Shown here: positions 2,461 through 37,921 of the stretch, in pieces
Layout: every line of letters begins with the position of its first letter
Position numbering within the stretch: the stretch's first letter is position 1
Source of the DNA: Phormidium tenue FACHB-886
Lineage (GTDB): Bacteria; Cyanobacteriota; Cyanobacteriia; Elainellales; Elainellaceae
NCBI RefSeq assembly: GCF_014764505.1
Contig: NZ_JACXWX010000002.1
Location: 248,001-312,000, forward strand
DNA length: 64,000 bases
Reading direction: 5' to 3'
The notes under the pieces: model-generated
What the model was told of the DNA's origin: nothing
Databases searched by the model: none
Seen by the model: the letters and a program-made list of their open reading frames with translations, nothing else
Translations under genes and position numbers: made by a program

Positions 2461-3094
2461 GGGGAATTCCTCCGCGATCGTATCGCCGACGGTGAATCAG
2501 CTCTAGCTGCCCGCCGTACTCTTGAATTAGCGCTAGCTGCCGCTGGTAAAGCCCACGAAACGTGTTAGCAAACAGCAACGTAAAGATGGCAACGACCAGC
2601 CCGCTTGCCGTGGAAATTAGCGCTTCGCTGATGCCGCCCGTTACCCCTGCACTATTGGTGCCACCTACATCGCCGATTCTAAGGGAGGCGAAAGAGTTGA
2701 TCAAACCCAGCACGGTTCCCAACAGCCCTAGCAGTGGCGAAACGCTAATTACCGTATCAAACACGGTGTTAAACCGCTTCAGCAATGGAATTTCTGCTTG
2801 GGCTGCGCTCTCCAGCGCCAACCGAAATTCATCTGCACTAGCTTGCTCTAGCTCTAAGGCAGCTAGAAAAATGCGGGCGATCGGCAAGTTGGTATGCTGC
2901 TCCAGCTTTTGCATTGCTGCTTTTGTGCTGCGACGATATAGCCCCAGCGCCTCGCGCACCACTTTATCTTGCCGCCGCACCACCCGCCACCAAAACAGGC
3001 TCCGCTCTAGAATCAGCGCTACCGCCAGGATTGATAGTCCCAGCAGAGGAACCATGACGATTCCACCGAGGACAAAGAAGTTGACGATGGACAT
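2447..3094 (-). CDS. exbB: ExbB/TolQ/MotA-family proton channel protein
   Basis: Inner-membrane subunit that with ExbD forms a proton-driven motor energising outer-membrane or envelope processes. The 215 residues contain an N-terminal transmembrane helix (about 8-30), a cytoplasmic helical domain, and two closely spaced membrane segments with PLLGLLGTVLGLINSFASL near residue 120 and ISEALISTASGLVVAIFTLL near residue 155, the MotA/TolQ/ExbB signature. It is the first gene of a two-gene unit and its end overlaps the start of exbD by 14 bases. Confidence 0.92.
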   Translation of the reverse strand: MSIVNFFVLGGIVMVPLLGLSILAVALILERSLFWWRVVRRQDKVVREALGLYRRSTKAAMQKLEQHTNLPIARIFLAALELEQASADEFRLALESAAQAEIPLLKRFNTVFDTVISVSPLLGLLGTVLGLINSFASLRIGDVGGTNSAGVTGGISEALISTASGLVVAIFTLLFANTFRGLYQRQLALIQEYGGQLELIHRRRYDRGGIPHASA

Positions 3095-3239
3095 GGTGAG
3101 CCTCTCCGCCGCTTACATCCAGCTAACAGCATACTGCGATTGGGTAAAGCGATCGCGGTTCGCCTGCTCAAACTAACTGCTTCTCAGAGCATCTCAAAAT
3201 AAACGCTTCAAGCGCTTCCTTGTGTCTGAACCCCATCCG

Positions 3240-4034
3240 CTAGCGAGTACCAGGAAAATACTCGATCTGGGCATAGCCACTAAACACGAGCTGCTTGCCG
3301 TTCGTGTCCAAACGGTTTAACCGCAGTGTGACTCCATCCAGGTCAAAGCGATCAAGATCGACCATGCTATCTAGCACTTGGGCAAAGGCGATCGACAGCG
3401 TTTCTGCTAATCCGCGCACGTCTTCGGGAACGGCTTCCGCATCGAACTGGGGGTCTTTAAAGCTAACGCGGCGGCGCTTTTCAATGGTTAGCGTTGCCGT
3501 CAACCGGATTGGCACATCTTTTTTGTTGGGCAAATCTGTTTCAGCCTCAATTTTGACCAGGTTATCGGGGAGAAGCTGAACCTTCACTGCCCTGAACGAG
3601 ATAGGCTCGCCCCCTGACAAATTGGTTAGCTCAGGGCGATCGACCTTTTGCAGGCGCTGTTGTACCAAATCTGCCTCAAAGGCGCGGTTGATCGCTTCCT
3701 CGGAAAGAACTACCTGTGCTACGGCTTGAGTAGGCTGTTTCAAGCGCAGCTTGCCCCCCAAAACAGAGGCATAATCAATTGCCACTGCATCTGTTTCAAA
3801 GGACATTTCTTCAACTTCAAACTGTCGGCGGATCACCAGTCCCCGACCGCTCATTTTGAAATTGTCGATATTGCCCTGCAGCAGTTTGCTGGAGGGATAG
3901 CAGCGAATTGCCACATCCACAAATTCACTCTTGCTGAACAAGTGACGAATGGACTGAGCCGCAGCTGCGTTCAGCATGCGTTCGCCAAAGTCTGTTCCGG
4001 CTTGGTTTTGGGAGCCTAAAAAACTACCAAACAT
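3240..4034 (-). CDS. DUF2993 (LmeA-like) family protein
   Basis: About 264 residues with the DUF2993 pattern, a family related to mycobacterial LmeA and thought to bind phospholipid, common in cyanobacteria in several copies. The N-terminal half has the FVDVAIRCYPSSKLLQG region and a 'scaffold' of beta strands; the C-terminal half contains LSEEAINRAFEADLVQQRL and ends with FSGYAQIEYFPGT. No signal peptide or membrane segment is visible, as for most cyanobacterial members. The ATG at 4034 (MFGSFLGS) was chosen because it matches the typical MFG start; an upstream frame opens at 4073. It is divergent from nadK. The function in cyanobacteria is not established. Confidence 0.8.
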   Translation of the reverse strand: MFGSFLGSQNQAGTDFGERMLNAAAAQSIRHLFSKSEFVDVAIRCYPSSKLLQGNIDNFKMSGRGLVIRRQFEVEEMSFETDAVAIDYASVLGGKLRLKQPTQAVAQVVLSEEAINRAFEADLVQQRLQKVDRPELTNLSGGEPISFRAVKVQLLPDNLVKIEAETDLPNKKDVPIRLTATLTIEKRRRVSFKDPQFDAEAVPEDVRGLAETLSIAFAQVLDSMVDLDRFDLDGVTLRLNRLDTNGKQLVFSGYAQIEYFPGTR

Positions 4035-4357
4035 GCAGTTACTCGCGTACAGTCCCGTGTCTAGTTGTAACAAAGTGTGAAGGATTCTGGCAATAAAGAT
4101 TACTTTGGTAAAGGTTCAATAAATTTTATGAATCTACGACCGTTGCTTCTAGATCATAGGTCATCGCTCGATTAAGCACACTCCGCGTTAATCTATATAA
4201 AAAGCGTGACCAGTATTGGACTAGAAGCTGTTTCAGCCAGATTTGCAGCGCTTTACTTGACTTAAAAAGTGCTTTGAGAAGCAGAAGTGTTGCCCAAAGG
4301 CATAAGTTTAACTTCTCAAAACGTTAGGCAACTTTAATATTGAGATTGGATAGCCAA
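4035..4357. other. divergent promoter region DUF2993 / nadK
   Basis: About 320 bases between two divergent genes. It is AT-rich and probably holds both promoters, but no specific operator, riboswitch or RNA gene was recognised. An imperfect inverted pair GAGAAG / CTTCTC lies near 4276-4317. Confidence 0.4.
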
Positions 4358-27997: not shown

Positions 27998-30900
27998 TTA
28001 GCCCAGCCCATAAGCCGCAGAATCACCCAACGCGATCGCGCTAGCCCCTTTAGAAAGTGGATCTGCAGAGGTGCGTTCCAGCCCTGCTAAGCCAACTCGC
28101 TCATCGAGGTGCAGCGGTTTTTCTAGCTTCAGCGTCACGATCTCAGTATTGTCGATTGCTGGCGGACGACCAATCGAGAACGGATAGTTGTTGTCGTTAG
28201 CAACCAGAATCGTCTCTTTGTCGAGTACCAACACATCTTCGATCGTCTGGAACGGCATTCTATACGTGGTGTTGCCGTCTTTGTTGAGGTCATCGGGATC
28301 TTGGATATTCAGCAGATCGGCAATTTCCTCTTTGGCAACAAAACCATTGGCATCTTTGTGGGATAGATCGACTTTGTAGATCTTTTTGAATTTAGCAGCA
28401 TCGGCTTGGTTGTTATCTCGCTCAATCACTAGATACTCATTGGTATTGATAACTGCCATATCACCGATCGCATTCGCGGCATTCTCAAGTTTGTAGTAGC
28501 CTTTTAGCCCGGTGAATTCTCGGCTTGCCACATCAAACTCATTGATCCGCAAAGCATTGGTGGGATCGCCTGTCACTGCTCCTTCCAGCAGCGCATAGAT
28601 TGTTTGGCGATCGGGACTGATCGCCACTCCCTCAAAACCTCTAGATCCACCCAAATTAGCGACTACGGGTGGTTCGATAAAGGTGCTGCGAGCATCTGCT
28701 CCAGTGCCAGGAAAATCGGTAAAGAAGCCATCTACCCCCAGCTCGATCAGCTGCTTAAACTCTGCGATTGGATCGCCGTTGTAGCTGGCAGGCAAAAAGA
28801 AGCTTTCATTCCGCAAGGTGTAAGGATGGACAAGCAGCCCGGCTGTGTGGGCATCTTGTACCAATGTGGTGGGTGTGCCTGTAACGCGATCGCCATCGCT
28901 AATCTGTCCGTCGCCATTCAGGTCATCCGGACGACCATCGTTGTTCTGATCCACCGGTGAGAGGGGCACAATCCGCTGCTTGTTAGGTCCAATTCCTGCC
29001 GCATAGGTGGCGATTTCGGTTAGCCCTGCTGGAGTGGATAGGTCCGTGTAGGTGCGGGTGTCGCCGCTCACCACAAAATCGTAAGGACGACCGGAAGCCC
29101 CAAATAGCTGCACCAAAGGAATGTCGATGCCTGCATTAGGCATTAGCGTTGTATTCAGCTCCTTCAGGTTCCCTACTTCAAAGGACTGGATGAAGACGCG
29201 CGTCGGATCGGTAAATTGCTTCTCAGTCAGCGTATTCACCAGGAGCTGGCTGGTGTTGTAGCCTTGAGCAGCAAAGAAGGTGGGGTGTTTGGTCTCAGGA
29301 TAGATGCCGATCTTGCGTCCGGTTTCTTGTTCAACCTGCTGCACCAGATCGATCACTTCTGCCAGAGTCGGCACTTTTAGCCCGTCATTGTTGAACTGCG
29401 TGCCGCGCAGCGCAGGCAACCGTTCGATCGCATTGACGCTCTTGATCTCTTCCAGGGTAAAATCTTCGGCAAACCAGCCCGTCACCGAAACTCCATCCAA
29501 AACCTTGGTGGTTTTGCGATCGGCAAATTCAGAACGGAGATAAATATCGGTGCTGGTGTCGGTCATGTTGACTGTGCCATCCGCATTCAGCACTGCCAGC
29601 ATTGGCTCGTGACGAGCGATCAGCACCCCATCTTTGCTGACGACCAAATCCGGTTCGATGAAGTCTGCTCCATCCGCGATCGCCTTTTTGTAGGCAGCCA
29701 GCGTGTGCTCCGGTCGTTCGCCGCTTGCGCCCCGATGCCCAATCACGATCGGTGCTTTGCCCTCCAGGGTGTTGAACGTTGTGGTGTTCAGAACATCGGG
29801 ATTTTGGGGCGATCGGACAAATTGTCCGGTGATCTGGTCGCGCACCAGATCGCCTGTGCCAGGAAAGTCGGTGAAGTAGCCATCTACACCCAGATTAATG
29901 AACTGCTTAAACTCGGCAGCCGGATCGCCTTTGTAGTCGGAAGCGAGGTAGCGGTCCTCGTTGCGGAAGGTGTAAGGATGCACCAGAAGATTCGCGGCAT
30001 GGGCATCTTGGACGAGCGTAGTGGGTGAGGTGGTCACCTTGTCGGCATCGTTGATTGTCCCGTCACCATTTAGATCATCCGCTTTGCCGTCGCCGTCCGC
30101 ATCTACTTCTTTAACAGAAACGATCATCCGCTTCCAGGGACCAATACCGTCTGCATAGGTGGCAATCTCTTGCAATCCTGCTGGAGATCGTAGATCGGCA
30201 TAAGTGCGCGAGTCGCCGCTGACCACAAAATCATAGGGGCTGATTTCGATCAGGGAGCCGTCCGGATTGACATCAAACGCATCCAGGAGCTGTACCAGCG
30301 GAATGTCTGTTTTCTGGTTTAGCTCCTTGAGATTGCTGACCTCGAAGGACTGGATGAAAATGCGGCTGAGATCGTTAAATTCAGTCTGTTCCAGCGTCGC
30401 CAGCAGGGGCTCTTCAAGCGATAATCCCAAATTGTCGTGGAAGGTAGGATGTTTGGTTTCCGGGTAGATTCCGACTTTCTTACCCGTGTCTTTCTCAACC
30501 TGTTTCACCAGGTTAATCACTTCTTCAAACGTCGGAATTTCAAATACGCCATTAAATGCCTGAGTCCGGAAGCCCTGTGGCATGATCGCCCGTAGCGTCT
30601 TAATCTCTGCCAGGGTGAAGTCAGAAGCAAAATAATCTTCAACTTCTACACCATCGAGGATTTTCTTGGTTTTGCGATCGGCAAATTCGGGACGGCTCGC
30701 CACATCTGTTGTACCTCCCAGCATTGGCTCATGACGGGCGATCAAGACGCCATCTTTAGTAGAAACCAGGTCGGGTTCGATGAAGTCAGCGCCTCGCTCG
30801 ATCGCCAGCTTGTATGCCTCCAGCGTGTGTTCGGGCAGTTCGCCGCTTGCGCCCCGGTGTCCAATTACAATCGGCGGTTTGCCGTCGATCGTGTTGGCGT

Positions 30901-31414
30901 TGTAGTAGTTAGGCGTGGCAATAGGCGCGTCTAGCAGTTTGCCTGTGCTGTCGAAGTGCAGCAGATAGGGTCCAAATTCGTCGCCAATCCACAGCGTGCC
31001 GTCTTCAGCAATTACCAGCGATTCAATGTCAAAGTCTGCTCCTGTTAAAAGGCGATCGCTCGTATTGTCGTTTGTGATCTTGAACGGTGCTTTTTTGTCT
31101 GGATCAGCAAGCTGAATAAATTCGTCGAAAATCTTAATGCTGCCGTCGCCGCCTTCAGCGGATTGGAAGTTGGGATCGACACGATACACCCTTAGTAGAA
31201 AGTCAGAGCTATTGTTCTTTGCGCCATAGCCGTTGTCAGGCATGAACCAAAACGTGTTGCCATCAAAAAATTGGACGGCGCTGAACCCTTGAACGGGCTG
31301 ATCCTGGAAAGGACCTGTACGTCCGTTGGCAGACACGTCTTTGCCAGAGGACGGACCTGCCGCGAAGGTATCGGCAGGCAGTGACGCAAAACCGGTTAGT
31401 CTTGGACTTGTCAT
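27998..31414 (-). CDS. phytase-like esterase with two inserted GDPD domains
   Basis: An 1138-residue protein. Residues about 1-170 match the start of the phytase-like esterase family ([40 protein letters not shown]), which resumes after residue about 910 ([20 protein letters not shown]). Between them are two similar glycerophosphodiester phosphodiesterase domains (about 176-530 and 551-905), each with [34 protein letters not shown] and a calcium-loop-like insert ([15 protein letters not shown] and [15 protein letters not shown]). Both GDPD domains keep His and Glu catalytic residues. No signal peptide is visible, as in many cyanobacterial exported RTX-like proteins. A role in using phosphodiesters outside the cell is inferred. 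Start ATG at 31414. Confidence 0.9.
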
Positions 31415-31991
31415 AAGGGTTCATGAGAATGATAGAGACCAGGGGCTTGCAATTTCCCCTTCACGAAATTCCCATGACAACATTAAGAACTAGCGATCGA
31501 TTGCTAAAGAATAGATTTAGAAGTTTGAAAGACCTCTACAGGCTTGCTCTAAAGGAAACTCAAGCCCTACTAGGGTTACAGAATTTCATACTTTCAAGTT
31601 TTGATGAAGCATTGCGGCTAGGGTTTGCACTCTTAGATGCAATCTGCTAAACGGAGAGATTGCCTTTCACCCCGTTGAAATTCTGGTTCATAAACCTGAT
31701 AGGATCGCCCTTTAATCCTGTGAGCTGCGGGTGGGATGGCGATCGCAAACTAAAGCTCTAATCTCAAGAATTGAGATATTCTCAATCCATTAAAGCTGAG
31801 GGCTGGGTTTAGAAAAGTCAATCGTGATACCCAATCTGCTGCATCCCTCAACGAGCAACCGCGGACGCCCTAACCGCAGCAGGCTACAGCGGACGAGTCC
31901 TGAGTTGTTGCAATCAACTCTCAAAAGCGCGATGCTATTCTAGCAACAGAAGATCAGAACTCTTCGCAATAGCCGATCGTGCTCATTGATC
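31415..31991. promoter_or_regulatory. divergent regulatory region GDPD gene / oxidase operon
   Basis: About 577 bases between divergent genes. Contains the triple-hexamer element at 31762-31785 and a GAGTTG / CAACTC inverted repeat at 31902-31920, about 90 bases before the oxidase start. A 75-codon open frame at 31423-31650 is not supported. Confidence 0.5.
31762..31785. promoter_or_regulatory. candidate operator of three alternating hexamers
   Basis: TCTCAA (31762-31767), then TTGAGA (31771-31776), then TCTCAA (31780-31785), with 3-base spacers GAA and TAT. Adjacent hexamers are exact inverted complements, giving two overlapping perfect palindromes with 9-base spacing. The arrangement resembles operators bound by dimers of winged-helix regulators such as Fur. 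It does not match the Fur consensus GATAAT. Confidence 0.55.
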
Positions 31992-32996
31992 ATGCCTGAT
32001 TATTCAACTCTGAAAATGACTCCTTGGAGTCGGCGACGATTTCTATACTGGGGGCTAGCTGCAGCCGGAATTACCGGGGCATCTGTAGCGGTGCAGCACT
32101 CCCAGCGCTCTACGTCACAGGCGCAAATTCCTCCGTTTGAGAAAGATTTGCCTACCTATGGCAATGGCATCAGCCCGATGCAGGTCTGCCGCGATTTTGA
32201 TTACGGCACGATTAAACAGGAAAACGGACGCACAATTCGCGAATTTCAAATTACCGCGAGTTCTACAACGCTGCAACTCAATCAAGTCGTTTCCTACCCC
32301 ACTTGGAACTACAACGGACGGGTTCCCGGCCCAACCCTGCGGGCAACCGAAGGCGATCGCGTCCGAGTTGTTTTTCTCAACGAAGGTGGACATGCCCACA
32401 CCATGCATTTTCACGGCATCCACCCCTCTGACGTAGACGGGGTTAAACCTGTCCGCAACGGCACCGCCACCATCTACGAATTTGACGCCATTCCCTACGG
32501 GCTTCACCTCTATCACTGTCACATTGCGCCCGTTGCTCGCCACATCGGCAAAGGGCTGCATGGAATGTTCATCATTGATCCAAAACAGGGGCGCGCCCCT
32601 GCCGATGAACTCGTGCTGGTGATGAACGGCTACGACCTCGACGAAAACAACCAGAATGAACTCTACGCCTTCAACGGCATCCCCAACTACTATAGGCAAA
32701 ATCCAATTTCGATCTACCAGAACCAGTTGGTGCGAGTATATCTACTCAATGTGATCGAATTTGACCCAGCCGTCACGTTTCATCTGCATGCCAACTTTTT
32801 TCGGCTGTATCCCACGGGCATGACAACCGCGCCCACTATGGAAACTGACGTAATAACAATGGGCACTGCCGAACGCCACATCCTGGAGTTTGCTTATCCT
32901 TATGCGGGCAAGTATATGTTTCATCCGCACCAAGACGCAATCGCTGAGTCAGGCTGTATGGGGGTGTTTAACGTGCTGCCGTCTAAACCTGCTTGA
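31992..32996 (+). CDS. Tat-exported two-domain multicopper oxidase
   Basis: A 334-residue copper oxidase with a twin-arginine signal (SRRRFLYWGLAAAGITGAS). It has two cupredoxin domains. Four copper motif pairs of a trinuclear centre are seen: HTMHFHGIHPS near residue 136, YHCHIAPVARHIGKGLHGMF near 174, FHLHANFF near 263 and FHPHQDA near 310. The type-1 copper ligands (HCH...H...GLHGMF) are only in the first domain; the second has HPH without Cys. Oxidases of this type may oxidise Fe(II). The gene heads an operon-like set with a helix-hairpin-helix/EfeO-like protein and an FTR1 permease, so a ferroxidase role is inferred. ATG at 31992 was preferred over TTG at 31986. Confidence 0.9.
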   Translation: MPDYSTLKMTPWSRRRFLYWGLAAAGITGASVAVQHSQRSTSQAQIPPFEKDLPTYGNGISPMQVCRDFDYGTIKQENGRTIREFQITASSTTLQLNQVVSYPTWNYNGRVPGPTLRATEGDRVRVVFLNEGGHAHTMHFHGIHPSDVDGVKPVRNGTATIYEFDAIPYGLHLYHCHIAPVARHIGKGLHGMFIIDPKQGRAPADELVLVMNGYDLDENNQNELYAFNGIPNYYRQNPISIYQNQLVRVYLLNVIEFDPAVTFHLHANFFRLYPTGMTTAPTMETDVITMGTAERHILEFAYPYAGKYMFHPHQDAIAESGCMGVFNVLPSKPA

Positions 32997-33162
32997 ACTG
33001 CTCTATTTGCAAAAAATTGCAGGCAGCTTGCTCAAAAAGCATACTATTTAATTGACAGAAATTCTCAAAAGCGGGATGATGAGTGTCTTGTGATCCAAAC
33101 GAAGCAACCCCCTCCTCAAAGTCGGGTTGTCTTAGTAACAAATTCAAATTTTGTAAGCGCTT

Positions 33163-34203
33163 ATGTCTATTCCTCGCTCCATCTTTCGATACCTGCTGGT
33201 TGCAGTCACCATCGCCTGTTTAGCCATCGGTCTGAACAACTGTGCGCCTTCCTCGCCGACTGCCTCTTCGCCTGCTGCCGATACTGCTGCCAGTAGCCCT
33301 GCTGCTGATGCTGCCTCCACCACTACAGCCAGCGGCGATCGCAAGATCAACATCAATACTGCCATTCTGTCTGAGCTGGATAAGCTAGAGGCGCAGTTGG
33401 GCGTTCCGGCCCTCTCCAACAAAATCCAAGCCGCTCGTCCTTATGGCAGCCCTGAAGATCTGGTCAGCAAAAAGGTGGTGACTCAGGCGCAGTTCGATCA
33501 AATTAAAGACCAAGTGACGATTGAAGATATCGTCTTGACGGGCGAAGCGAAGGACGTGGACTATCTGACCAAGCTCGGTCTGATGAAAGGTCACATGATT
33601 GTGGCTGGGGAACTGTTGAGGCTGAATTTGCCGGAGCAAGCCGAGCCACACTTGGGACATCCGGTTGAAGAGATCTATGTAGATGTGCAAGAGCAGCTTC
33701 CAGAGCGCAATGTGGCAGAGTTCAGCGACACGCTCACCAAAGTCCAAGACTTGGTGAAGTCAAAGCCGACCGATCCAGAGGTGCAATCTGCATACAATGA
33801 CGCCATGACTGCCATTGATAAAGCGATTGCCGCGCTGCCTGCCGATCAGCTCAAGAATCCTTCCTTCGTGCTGCAATCTGTCAATGAAATGCTGGATACT
33901 GCTGCTGCTGAATATACGGCTGCCATCAGCGACGGGAAAATTAGCGCAGAGATTGAATATCAAGACTCGCGCGGTTTTGTTGCCTATGTCAAAGACAAGC
34001 TCCTGAAAGATATTCAGCCCCAGCTTGCCCAAGAAAACGCTGGACTGGACAAAGATCTGGTCAGCAAGGTTGACACCCTCTACACGGCTTGGCCCGAACC
34101 TGTGCCACCCCAAGCCCCAGTTAAATCTGCAGATGAAGTGGCAAATCAAGTCAAGGCGATCGAACAAGCCTCTGCCCCAGCAATTAAACCTACCGCATCA
34201 TAA
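33163..34203 (+). CDS. helix-hairpin-helix and EfeO-like periplasmic protein
   Basis: A 346-residue exported protein. The N-terminus is a signal peptide (IFRYLLVAVTIACLAIGL) with a Cys that could be lipidated, though the lipobox is atypical. After an Ala/Ser linker there is a ComEA-type helix-hairpin-helix motif (KININTAILSELDKLEAQLG, residues about 64-115). The rest is helical and contains KGHMIVAGELL and EPHLGHPVEE, a His/Glu-rich pattern like that of EfeO/EfeM, periplasmic partners of ferrous iron permeases. Placed between a multicopper oxidase and an FTR1 permease, it probably passes iron between them. The DNA-binding reading of the HHH motif is therefore unlikely. Confidence 0.8.
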   Translation: MSIPRSIFRYLLVAVTIACLAIGLNNCAPSSPTASSPAADTAASSPAADAASTTTASGDRKININTAILSELDKLEAQLGVPALSNKIQAARPYGSPEDLVSKKVVTQAQFDQIKDQVTIEDIVLTGEAKDVDYLTKLGLMKGHMIVAGELLRLNLPEQAEPHLGHPVEEIYVDVQEQLPERNVAEFSDTLTKVQDLVKSKPTDPEVQSAYNDAMTAIDKAIAALPADQLKNPSFVLQSVNEMLDTAAAEYTAAISDGKISAEIEYQDSRGFVAYVKDKLLKDIQPQLAQENAGLDKDLVSKVDTLYTAWPEPVPPQAPVKSADEVANQVKAIEQASAPAIKPTAS

Positions 34204-34341
34204 AATCACTTGGGGATGGGAAAGACCTGTCCCCAAGAATCTTTGTAGGCTCTAGATCTGCTGTTGATAGTTTGAAAGGCGCTTCCGTAGACTGCAACAA
34301 TCAACAGCAGCTGTGAAACACCACGCTCTTCTCTTGCACCG

Positions 34342-35292
34342 ATGGACTTTTCTTCTATTTTGCCCACGTTTGTAATCACCCTACGCGAAGGGGTGGAAGC
34401 AGCACTGGTGACGGGTATTGTGCTGGCTTGCCTTGCCAAAGCCAATCGATCGCAGCTAAATCGCTGGGTTTATCTGGGAGTGGTGGCGGGGATTTTGGTC
34501 AGCGTTTTGATTGGCTTTTTGTTTGCCTGGATTATTCAGCTTTTAGGAGCTGTCAGCCCTGCGGCAGAACCCCTGCTAGAAGGAGTTTTCAGCTTACTGG
34601 CAGTAGTGCTGCTGAGCTGGATGTTAATTTGGATGACCCAGCAGGCGCGGTCTATGAAAAGCCAGGTAGAAGGCAGCGTGGCGGCAGCCCTCAAGAGCGG
34701 TGGCGGCTGGGGCATCTTTATGCTGATCTTCATTGCGGTGCTGCGAGAGGGTTTTGAAACGGTGGTGTTTATTGCTGCCAAGTTTAATGAAGGCTTGCTG
34801 CCTGCGATCGGTGCACTGGCGGGTTTGGGGATAGCGGTAGCGATCGGCGTGCTGCTGTTTAAGTGGGGCGTAAAGCTAAACTTAAAGCAATTCTTCCAGG
34901 TAATGGGCGTGCTGCTGCTGCTGGTAATTGCAGGACTAGTGGTCACAGCGCTAGGGCATTTCGATACGGTGATGCAAACGCTAGCAAGCCAAGATCGGGC
35001 ATCCGAGTCGCTGTGTTTCTACTACGAGCGCTTCACACGCAATCCCTCTTGCATCTTGGGTCCAGCCGTTTGGGATCTTTCAAAAGTGCTGCCCGACGAT
35101 CGCTTTCCGGGGTTGCTGCTTAGCGCCTTGTTTGGCTATACGCAAAAACTCTATCAGGTGCAGGCGATCGCCTATGTGCTGTTTTTGCTGACGATCGGTG
35201 CGATCTATTTTCAGAGCTTGGCAGGCAAAGTTTTTTTTGCAAAACCCCCATCCGATCAAAAGTATCCAGCGACAACTAAGCGCGATCGTTAG
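34342..35292 (+). CDS. FTR1-family iron permease
   Basis: A 316-residue membrane protein with seven or so helices and two copies of the FTR1/EfeU hallmark REGxE: TLREGVEAALVTGIV near residue 13 and VLREGFETVVFIAAKF near residue 133, whose Glu residues carry iron across the membrane. FTR1 permeases import Fe(III) produced by a coupled ferroxidase. The loop near residue 215-240 has two Cys (SLCFYYERFTRNPSC). The start ATG at 34342 has no strong ribosome site. Only 138 bases separate it from the preceding periplasmic gene. Likely the transport step of the iron cassette. Confidence 0.93.
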   Translation: MDFSSILPTFVITLREGVEAALVTGIVLACLAKANRSQLNRWVYLGVVAGILVSVLIGFLFAWIIQLLGAVSPAAEPLLEGVFSLLAVVLLSWMLIWMTQQARSMKSQVEGSVAAALKSGGGWGIFMLIFIAVLREGFETVVFIAAKFNEGLLPAIGALAGLGIAVAIGVLLFKWGVKLNLKQFFQVMGVLLLLVIAGLVVTALGHFDTVMQTLASQDRASESLCFYYERFTRNPSCILGPAVWDLSKVLPDDRFPGLLLSALFGYTQKLYQVQAIAYVLFLLTIGAIYFQSLAGKVFFAKPPSDQKYPATTKRDR

Positions 35293-35694
35293 CTCAATCA
35301 ACCTGTTTGCGGTCTGCATAGCCCCTTTAGGTTTGGTCTTCCTAACTCATAGCGGAACTATTTTTGAGGGTTGCGTTCTGCAGAATCATAGGACTTATGC
35401 AATGTGGAGGTGGGCTAAGCCCACCTCCACATTGCATTACAGGGGTAAGGACTTTTGTAAGCCTTATCTCAAAAAATTCTGCATTCTTTTTAGTTGAATT
35501 CGGCAAATAAAAACTTTAGATGAGAACTTCAGAGGAATAGAACTATCTGAGCAGCAGAAGGGCTAAGCTGTCTTACAGCGCAAAGCGCTGAAACAAAATG
35601 CGGCTGCTGCGGGCTGCATTGCGATATTGTCCAAGCAGTATAGCAAGACAAAAATTCAGCAGAGACTCAGCGATATTTCAACGTGCCTCGCCCA
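35293..35694. other. intergenic region with 14-mer repeat and palindrome
   Basis: Contains ATAGGACTTATGCA (35388-35401) leading into a 39-base palindrome at 35398-35436. No gene or known RNA was recognised; the right part likely holds the promoter of the pentapeptide gene. Confidence 0.45.
35398..35436. repeat. 39-bp palindrome next to a dispersed 14-mer
   Basis: TGCAATGTGGAGGTGGGCT (35398-35416), a single central A, then the exact complement (35418-35436). The left arm begins inside the 14-mer ATAGGACTTATGCA at 35388-35401, which also occurs in the same orientation at 24177-24190, where it is followed by a weaker palindrome TGGTT-A-AACCA. Confidence 0.85.
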
Positions 35695-36826: not shown

Positions 36827-36880
36827 AACATTAAACCACAGCACTCAGCCAAAGTGCTTAGATCCAAGTGGAGAATTACC

Positions 36881-37921
36881 ATGCCATACGCAGTTAGAAC
36901 AGTTTTAGATACTTGGCTGAAGGGTAGCACAGGGCAAGGATCTGCCCTCCCAGAAGACCAAAAGCAATTTCTCAATTCAGGCATGACACTGCCGATCTCA
37001 GGCTTTGAGACGATCGAAGATCACCTCAAAGTAACACTAGGGCGGGACTCCCAAGGCAGGCAAATCTTTTTTAAGGGCAAAAATACCTGGTATGTTTACC
37101 GTCCGGCAGTGCAAATTCTTAGGGATGGACAGGTTGCCGTCATTCCGCAGCCTCCAGCGAAGCCAGTTTATGCCGTGAAAACGGTACTAGATACCTGGTT
37201 TAAAACCGGCACGGGGCAAGGCTCGAGCCTGCCCAGCAACCAAAAACAATTTGTTAGTGCCAACACTGTACTGCCGCTAGAGAGCTACAGCCAAGCCGAT
37301 AATGACCACCTTAAACTAACGCTGGGAAAAGATGCCCAGGGCAAGCAAGTCTTCTTTAATGGTCGCAACACCTGGTATGTATACCGTCCTGCCGTGCAGC
37401 TCTTTAGAGACGGCAAAGTTATTGTTCTGGCGTCGCCTACGGTCAATCCATTTGGGGAACCAGGCAATGCGACGAGGGGCATCAACGCTAAAGGATTGCG
37501 GCTGCTCAAATCTTTCGAAGGATTGCGGCTGACAGCTTATCTTGATCCAGTTGGCATTTGGACGATCGGCTATGGCACTACTTCTGGCGTTGGGCCGGGG
37601 ATGCAGATTACCGAAGCTCAAGCTGAAGCCTTTCTAAAGCGGGATCTAGCTAGGTTTGAGAATGCCGTTGCCAACCTGGTTGAAGTGCCGCTCAGTAGCG
37701 ATCAGTTCTCAGCACTGGTTTCGTTTGCCTATAACGTGGGTGAAGGGGCGCTAGCCAACTCAACGCTGCTGCGGCTGCTAAACCAGGGTGACTTTCGCGG
37801 TGCTGCCGATCAGCTCTTGCGCTGGAATAGAGGAGACAGCGGCGAGCTACCCGGTTTAACCCGCCGCCGCAGGGCTGAGCGAGCGTTGTTCTTGGGTGAA
37901 GACTTTACTGCATTTCTATAG
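36881..37921 (+). CDS. GH24 lysozyme with two N-terminal repeats
   Basis: A 346-residue protein. The last 145 residues are a phage-type lysozyme (GH24): SFEGLRLTAYLDPVGIWTIG carries the catalytic Glu, then Asp nine and Thr fifteen residues later as in T4 lysozyme, with FSALVSFAYNVG and LTRRRRAER following. Residues about 3-88 and 96-184 are two copies of an unfamiliar module (start YAV(R/K)TVLDTW, GQGS.LP..QKQF; then DHLK.TLG.D.QG.Q; end NTWYVYRPAVQ). No signal peptide is visible. The start at 36881 has GGAG 8 bases upstream. Not surrounded by prophage genes, so likely a host cell-wall hydrolase. Confidence 0.9.
   Translation: MPYAVRTVLDTWLKGSTGQGSALPEDQKQFLNSGMTLPISGFETIEDHLKVTLGRDSQGRQIFFKGKNTWYVYRPAVQILRDGQVAVIPQPPAKPVYAVKTVLDTWFKTGTGQGSSLPSNQKQFVSANTVLPLESYSQADNDHLKLTLGKDAQGKQVFFNGRNTWYVYRPAVQLFRDGKVIVLASPTVNPFGEPGNATRGINAKGLRLLKSFEGLRLTAYLDPVGIWTIGYGTTSGVGPGMQITEAQAEAFLKRDLARFENAVANLVEVPLSSDQFSALVSFAYNVGEGALANSTLLRLLNQGDFRGAADQLLRWNRGDSGELPGLTRRRRAERALFLGEDFTAFL

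Follow-up and report, generated by a model that had tools for sequence, protein, structure and literature searches.

A multicopper oxidase, a helix-hairpin-helix lipoprotein and an FTR1 permease form a recurrent gene trio in cyanobacteria with a probable role in iron import

Our analysis concerns three neighboring genes in a stretch of 64,000 nucleotides from Phormidium tenue FACHB-886, a cyanobacterium with an 8.9-Mb genome; the whole of this stretch is called the window below. The genes encode a multicopper oxidase, a lipoprotein that carries a helix-hairpin-helix (HHH) module, and an FTR1 iron permease (Table 1). An earlier note on this DNA had described three genes on the same strand with small gaps between them. 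All three genes were found and they do share a strand, but the gaps needed correction: 166 bp separate the oxidase gene from the middle gene and 138 bp separate the middle gene from FTR1. A single transcript has no direct support, because a putative operator, a Fur-like site, precedes the middle gene itself.

The window oxidase matches both Cu-oxidase domains (Pfam PF07732 and PF07731) and contains four HxH motifs (HFH at residues 139–141, HCH at 175–177, HLH at 264–266, and HPH at 311–313). The type-1 copper set, C176, H184, and M192, is present in domain 1 only. Across 66 aligned oxidases, M192 is kept in 98% and the remaining copper ligands in 100%, and all 66 carry a twin-arginine RRx signal. 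The domain and copper layout proposed in the earlier note is confirmed, as is a signal for twin-arginine translocation (Tat). The closest chain in the PDB is 3gdc, another multicopper oxidase (E 2e-89). The C-terminal sequence contains no hydrophobic segment, and with two matched domains the protein is not a membrane-anchored three-domain oxidase of the Fet3p type.

The middle protein is 346 amino acids long, and its closest relatives come from Oculatellaceae and Leptolyngbyaceae. Its lipobox cysteine, Cys27, is kept in 104 of 105 HHH-carrying relatives, a set drawn from two collections with near-copies included. Residues 60–119 form a real HHH_3 domain (PF12836, 30.9 bits, above the cut-off of 27), in agreement with what had been read from the letters. 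Residues 121–346 form a C-terminal domain that aligns between versions with and without the HHH module and contains invariant GH, HxxHPxEE, and EYQDS motifs; the previously noticed KGHM and EPHLGHPVEE motifs are both present. H144, H163, H166, E169, E170, E250, E265, and D268 do not vary in any of the 105 HHH versions. The 17 HHH-less versions mostly keep them as well (H144 in 15, H163 in 16, H166 in 15, and E170, E265, and D268 in 16 each), and E169, the glutamate of HxxE, is kept in just 12. From these invariant His, Glu, and Asp residues we infer that the C-terminal domain may bind iron. The predicted model (mean predicted local distance difference test score 86) is good in the folded parts; the C-terminal domain mostly scores above 90 and is almost wholly helical. 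A fold search matched no PDB structure at E≤0.001, and no family was assigned from the fold, as the top rows (designed helical bundles, vinculin, and talin) share a common bundle arrangement. As a separate observation, GGEGGEGGEG-type linkers occur in HHH-less middle proteins (L116, L118, L119, L122–L124, L127–L129, and L145) and also in cyanobacterial proteins of the M75 family (L133, L134, and L138–L141).

The third gene unambiguously encodes an FTR1 permease with both REGxE motifs, as had been claimed (PF03239, 204 bits against a cut-off of 25.3; REGVE and REGFE). Its predicted model has seven long helices and low confidence in the loop between transmembrane helices 6 and 7 (TM6 and TM7); no solved chain was matched by sequence. 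Judging from the basic residues in the other loops, we put the TM6–TM7 loop on the outside. The same genome contains a second FTR1 (G000:C190:49402-50253, L111) that is 63% identical and has a short TM6–TM7 loop. In the 16 kb around this second gene, neither the oxidase nor the middle protein was matched.

The order of the three genes is conserved in other cyanobacteria, as the earlier note had supposed. We fetched 78 relatives of the middle gene from named genomes. FTR1 lies on the same strand, at most 1.2 kb downstream, in 77 of them. The oxidase lies at most 700 bp upstream in 62/78 and 1.8–3.8 kb away in another 4; it is absent from the locus in 12, but in 6 of these the match lies less than 300 bases from the start of its contig, and they cannot be judged. 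The one relative without FTR1 (Oscillatoria sp. SIO1A7) is also without the HHH domain. In 52/78 loci a ferritin-like gene stands between the middle gene and FTR1, which is a Nostocales addition. A chance arrangement is excluded by how often the order recurs.

A draw of 386 genomes from across the phylum separates the parts of the middle protein. After removal of 6 weak or partial matches from 73, the middle protein is found in 67 genomes, the oxidase in 69, and both in 65 (Fisher p 3e-66, with relatedness ignored). Only G054 and G118 have the C-terminal domain without the oxidase, and in both the His motif is lost. FTR1 lies within 4 kb of the HHH form in 46/47 cases, always downstream on the same strand, and the exception (G048) is near a contig end. 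For the HHH-less form this number is 0/20, with FTR1 elsewhere in the genome in 11/20. These counts make the C-terminal domain the partner of the oxidase, and the HHH a module that travels with FTR1. Hence, the middle protein is an oxidase-associated C-terminal domain to which an HHH module was added together with the linkage to FTR1. The earlier note missed that the C-terminal domain pairs mainly with the oxidase and that the HHH is optional; its guess of a new use for the HHH as a protein contact agrees with the strict coupling to FTR1. Iron(II)-dependent dioxygenase-like genes were seen beside some HHH-less oxidase pairs (L116 3671–4336, L118 2934–3605, and L129 within 3075–4148); the family was checked in L116 only, the other two being judged by eye.

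The coupling of HHH and FTR1 arose in few events. In a tree of the C-terminal domain with 76 rows, the HHH state changes three times, with one gain and two losses (G305 and G027), and both losses are without an FTR1 neighbor. In a second tree, which included L109 and had fewer distant rows, G305 is still nested among carriers, and G027 and L109 are basal. L113 was considered as a second loss and set aside, being nested in one tree and not in the other; G305 alone is taken as firm. Counted as events, the link therefore comes down to a single gain plus at least one coordinated loss, and 66 independent cases cannot be claimed for it.

The permease itself also differs with the presence of its neighbor. 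Comparing 84 linked with 21 unlinked FTR1s, we found that HHH-linked permeases have an F-Y-Y-E-x-F insert between two conserved cysteines in the TM6–TM7 loop. R219 is invariant in linked FTR1s, and E76 stands where unlinked ones mostly have K. When the 84 are thinned by similarity to 26 tree rows, the loop pattern is intact in 26/26 linked rows and in 1/21 unlinked ones; in three unlinked FTR1s it is decayed.

Upstream of the genes, we searched non-redundant loci for a Fur-like pattern (7-1-7 consensus) with a threshold of at least 11/14 positions. Such sites precede the oxidase in 24/43 loci (shuffled mean 2.3) and the middle gene in 27/42 (shuffled mean 1.9); none was found 5' of FTR1 in 41 loci. 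Regulation by Fur in the window itself would be by analogy with these loci. Together with FTR1 and the ferritin-like neighbor, the Fur-like sites make the iron context of the trio, which the earlier note had suspected, well supported. The triple half-site 5' of the window oxidase is the sole copy in the genome when up to 1 mismatch is allowed, and its two palindromes occur in no other upstream region among 65. A TTGCA dyad was seen in 14/43 upstream regions.

Table 1. Coordinates of the trio and its features in the window.
Feature	Position	Strand	Evidence
Two-domain multicopper oxidase, Tat-type signal, type-1 Cu in domain 1 only	31992..32996	+	Pfam PF07732/PF07731
Lipoprotein (middle protein): lipobox Cys27, HHH module, candidate metal-site C-terminal domain	33163..34203	+	
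HHH_3 domain of middle protein, residues 60–119	33340..33519	+	PF12836, 30.9 bits; only where FTR1 adjoins
C-terminal helical domain of middle protein, residues 121–346	33523..34200	+	Alignment; model
Candidate metal site H144...H163xxH166PxEE170, plus E265/D268 downstream	33592..33672	+	Residue conservation
FTR1 iron permease, two REGxE motifs	34342..35292	+	PF03239, 204 bits
FTR1 TM6–TM7 loop insert C225-FYYERF...C237	35014..35052	+	84 linked vs 21 unlinked FTR1s
Fur-like site 5' of middle gene, TGACAGAAATTCTCA, 10/14	33053..33067	+	
Triple half-site TCTCAA-N3-TTGAGA-N3-TCTCAA 5' of oxidase	31762..31785	+	

Relatives outside the cyanobacteria were searched for in 72,556 plasmid records. The C-terminal domain has three relatives there. 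In Indioceanicola the next gene encodes a di-haem peroxidase that has a cupredoxin domain, in Roseovarius an Fe2+-dependent dioxygenase, and in Deinococcus taeanensis it lies immediately 5' of an FTR1 gene. Relatives of the oxidase are found on 139 plasmids. In all five records that were opened (L148–L152), which come from other phyla, a ZIP-type or "metal" transporter gene, not FTR1, lies 3' of the oxidase relative, and three of the five also have a divergent metal-dependent regulator.

We consider it probable, if far from certain, that the trio imports iron in a copper-dependent way through the periplasm of cyanobacteria. The Tat-exported oxidase would oxidize Fe(II) with O2, as its family and setting suggest. 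The C-terminal domain of the lipoprotein, the partner of the oxidase even where no FTR1 is nearby, would capture the iron, as is consistent with its conserved residues. The HHH module, gained in one lineage, could dock the lipoprotein on the outer face of FTR1, which is what the co-occurrence points to. The docking place is probably the TM6–TM7 loop with its conserved CFYYERF, where newly oxidized iron would be handed straight to the permease. FTR1 would then import the iron, and in Nostocales the ferritin-like protein of the same cluster would store it. Both the substrate of the oxidase and the docking of the HHH are inferred. The import reading is supported by the position of FTR1 (77/78) and of the oxidase (62/78), the co-occurrence of middle protein and oxidase across the phylum, the contrast between HHH forms and HHH-less forms (46/47 vs 0/20), the lost His motif in both genomes without an oxidase, the loss in G305, the ferritin-like gene (52/78), the Fur-like sites, and the arrangement in Deinococcus. 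A bolder version seems possible to us, yet we would not count on it. Here, the C-terminal domain would define an undescribed periplasmic iron-relay family that receives iron from different oxidases, such as the multicopper oxidase of cyanobacteria or the di-haem peroxidase-cupredoxin of Indioceanicola, and delivers it to different partners. In one cyanobacterial lineage it would have acquired an HHH adaptor, and the permease a matching Tyr/Glu-rich loop (CFYYERF), for a channeled handover. The HHH would dock as it does in PsbU, a subunit of photosystem II that provides a precedent for the HHH as a docking module.

Several observations weigh against iron import. The oxidase lies within 4 kb of 17/20 HHH-less forms, which means that oxidase and C-terminal domain have a job that is independent of an FTR1 neighbor. 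The transporters beside related oxidases on plasmids would also allow Mn or Zn as the metal. The link between HHH and FTR1 goes back to roughly a single origin with one to three later losses, which are few events. Linked FTR1s are essentially one clade, and shared descent is an alternative explanation for the loop insert. Two partnerless FTR1s fall inside this clade, and the loop is kept in one of them; a count of independent events for the loop yields only 2 pairs, which is not significant. Finally, no Fur site was found 5' of the window oxidase (best 8/14), and neither this score nor that of the middle gene (10/14) is significant alone. One could therefore argue that oxidase and lipoprotein form a stand-alone pair for the detoxification or handling of periplasmic metal (Fe(II), Mn(II), or Cu(I)), that the HHH has no role at FTR1, and that FTR1 is nearby since both answer to metal status. 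The 17 HHH-less versions with an oxidase and no FTR1 neighbor fit such a pair, as do the transporters (5/5) and metal-dependent regulators (3/5) beside the oxidase relatives. We nevertheless find it rather unlikely, because FTR1 adjoins almost every HHH form and no HHH-less form, and because a C-terminal domain relative adjoins FTR1 in Deinococcus also.

The earlier note had called the middle protein EfeO-like, and this claim was not supported: no family model backs it on the window protein. Peptidase_M75 gave no Pfam match up to E 0.1 on this protein, and its own genome contains no M75 protein at E≤1. One might still take the middle protein for a diverged EfeO/EfeM (M75) and the trio for a form of EfeUOB where the oxidase has taken the place of the peroxidase EfeB. 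An hhalign comparison of one alignment of the C-terminal domain (A3) with 12 cyanobacterial M75 proteins gave a probability of 88% (E 3e-6), but over 54 columns only, and the probability falls to 20% with another alignment (A1). PF09375 is matched by 4/27 members, with a best E of 0.0015. EfeM has two four-helix bundles (PMC9174327), and EfeM (Z 7.0) and EfeO (Z 6.7) do appear in the fold comparison; these values do not rise above the noise stated for helical bundles and were not counted as membership. The failure to match any PDB structure and the retention of the HxxE glutamate E169 in only 12 of the 17 HHH-less members also speak against it. At best, the C-terminal domain is a very remote M75/EfeO relative, and an EfeUOB variant is in our view unlikely. 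Far less likely still is a role of the protein in taking up or binding DNA, with the HHH part as a DNA-binding module of the ComEA kind. Among solved structures, the ComEA-related 2duy is indeed the one that matches the HHH part best, at E 0.33, but PsbU matches about equally well and the genetic setting is one of metal handling. In addition, the GIG hairpin of 2duy reads GVP in the middle protein, with P82 in 95/105, which argues against DNA binding.

We found no description of the trio in the full-text literature, with subscription journals mostly outside the search, so the impression that it is little described stands. We file it as a variant of the ferroxidase-permease systems with a third component, the HHH lipoprotein. 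Yeast and algae have ferroxidase-permease systems (PMC7676907, PMC7247011), bacteria have EfeUOB/M iron systems (PMC9174327), and in Brucella FtrABCD an FTR1-type permease works with a periplasmic copper-type protein (PMC11966278). FTR1 is also listed among the uptake genes of non-pico cyanobacteria (PMC3475125). In Synechocystis, ftr1 is induced by iron deficiency and cFTR1 is slr0964 (PMC7676907, PMC11221513), and FTR1 is linked to the iron regulator IutR1 (PMC11221513). This permease is a cyanobacterial FTR1 like ours, but the passages on it mention neither an oxidase nor an HHH lipoprotein as its companion (PMC7676907, PMC11221513).

The trio resembles yeast Fet3p-Ftr1p in combining a multicopper oxidase with an FTR1 permease that has REGxE motifs. 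It differs in that the window oxidase has two domains, a Tat-type signal, and no C-terminal membrane anchor, and in that a third gene, for a lipoprotein with a candidate metal site, lies between those for oxidase and permease. With EfeUOB/M it shares an FTR1-type permease and an exported, helical, possibly iron-binding protein, but the window protein has no M75 match, carries an HHH module, and has a multicopper oxidase next to it. FtrB of Brucella FtrABCD is a cupredoxin rather than a trinuclear-site oxidase, and the other components of that system are different proteins.

The question touched here is how bacterial FTR1/EfeU permeases receive their iron. Because the trio is conserved, its adaptor module can be separated and the permease has a loop to match, direct handover can be tested by deleting the domain or exchanging the loop. 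If the import reading is true, iron uptake would depend on copper supply in filamentous cyanobacteria, which often fix nitrogen and have a high iron demand.

Some further features of the window lie between or around the three genes. A 15-nt inverted repeat (93%) stands at 34258–34310, between the middle gene and FTR1, and a perfect 20-bp palindrome at 35397–35437, 3' of FTR1, could be a terminator or else a repeat element. A large gene at 27998–31414 encodes two GDPD domains with phytase-like parts on either side. At 36854–37921, a phage-lysozyme domain follows an N-terminal part that contains a pair of similar repeats.

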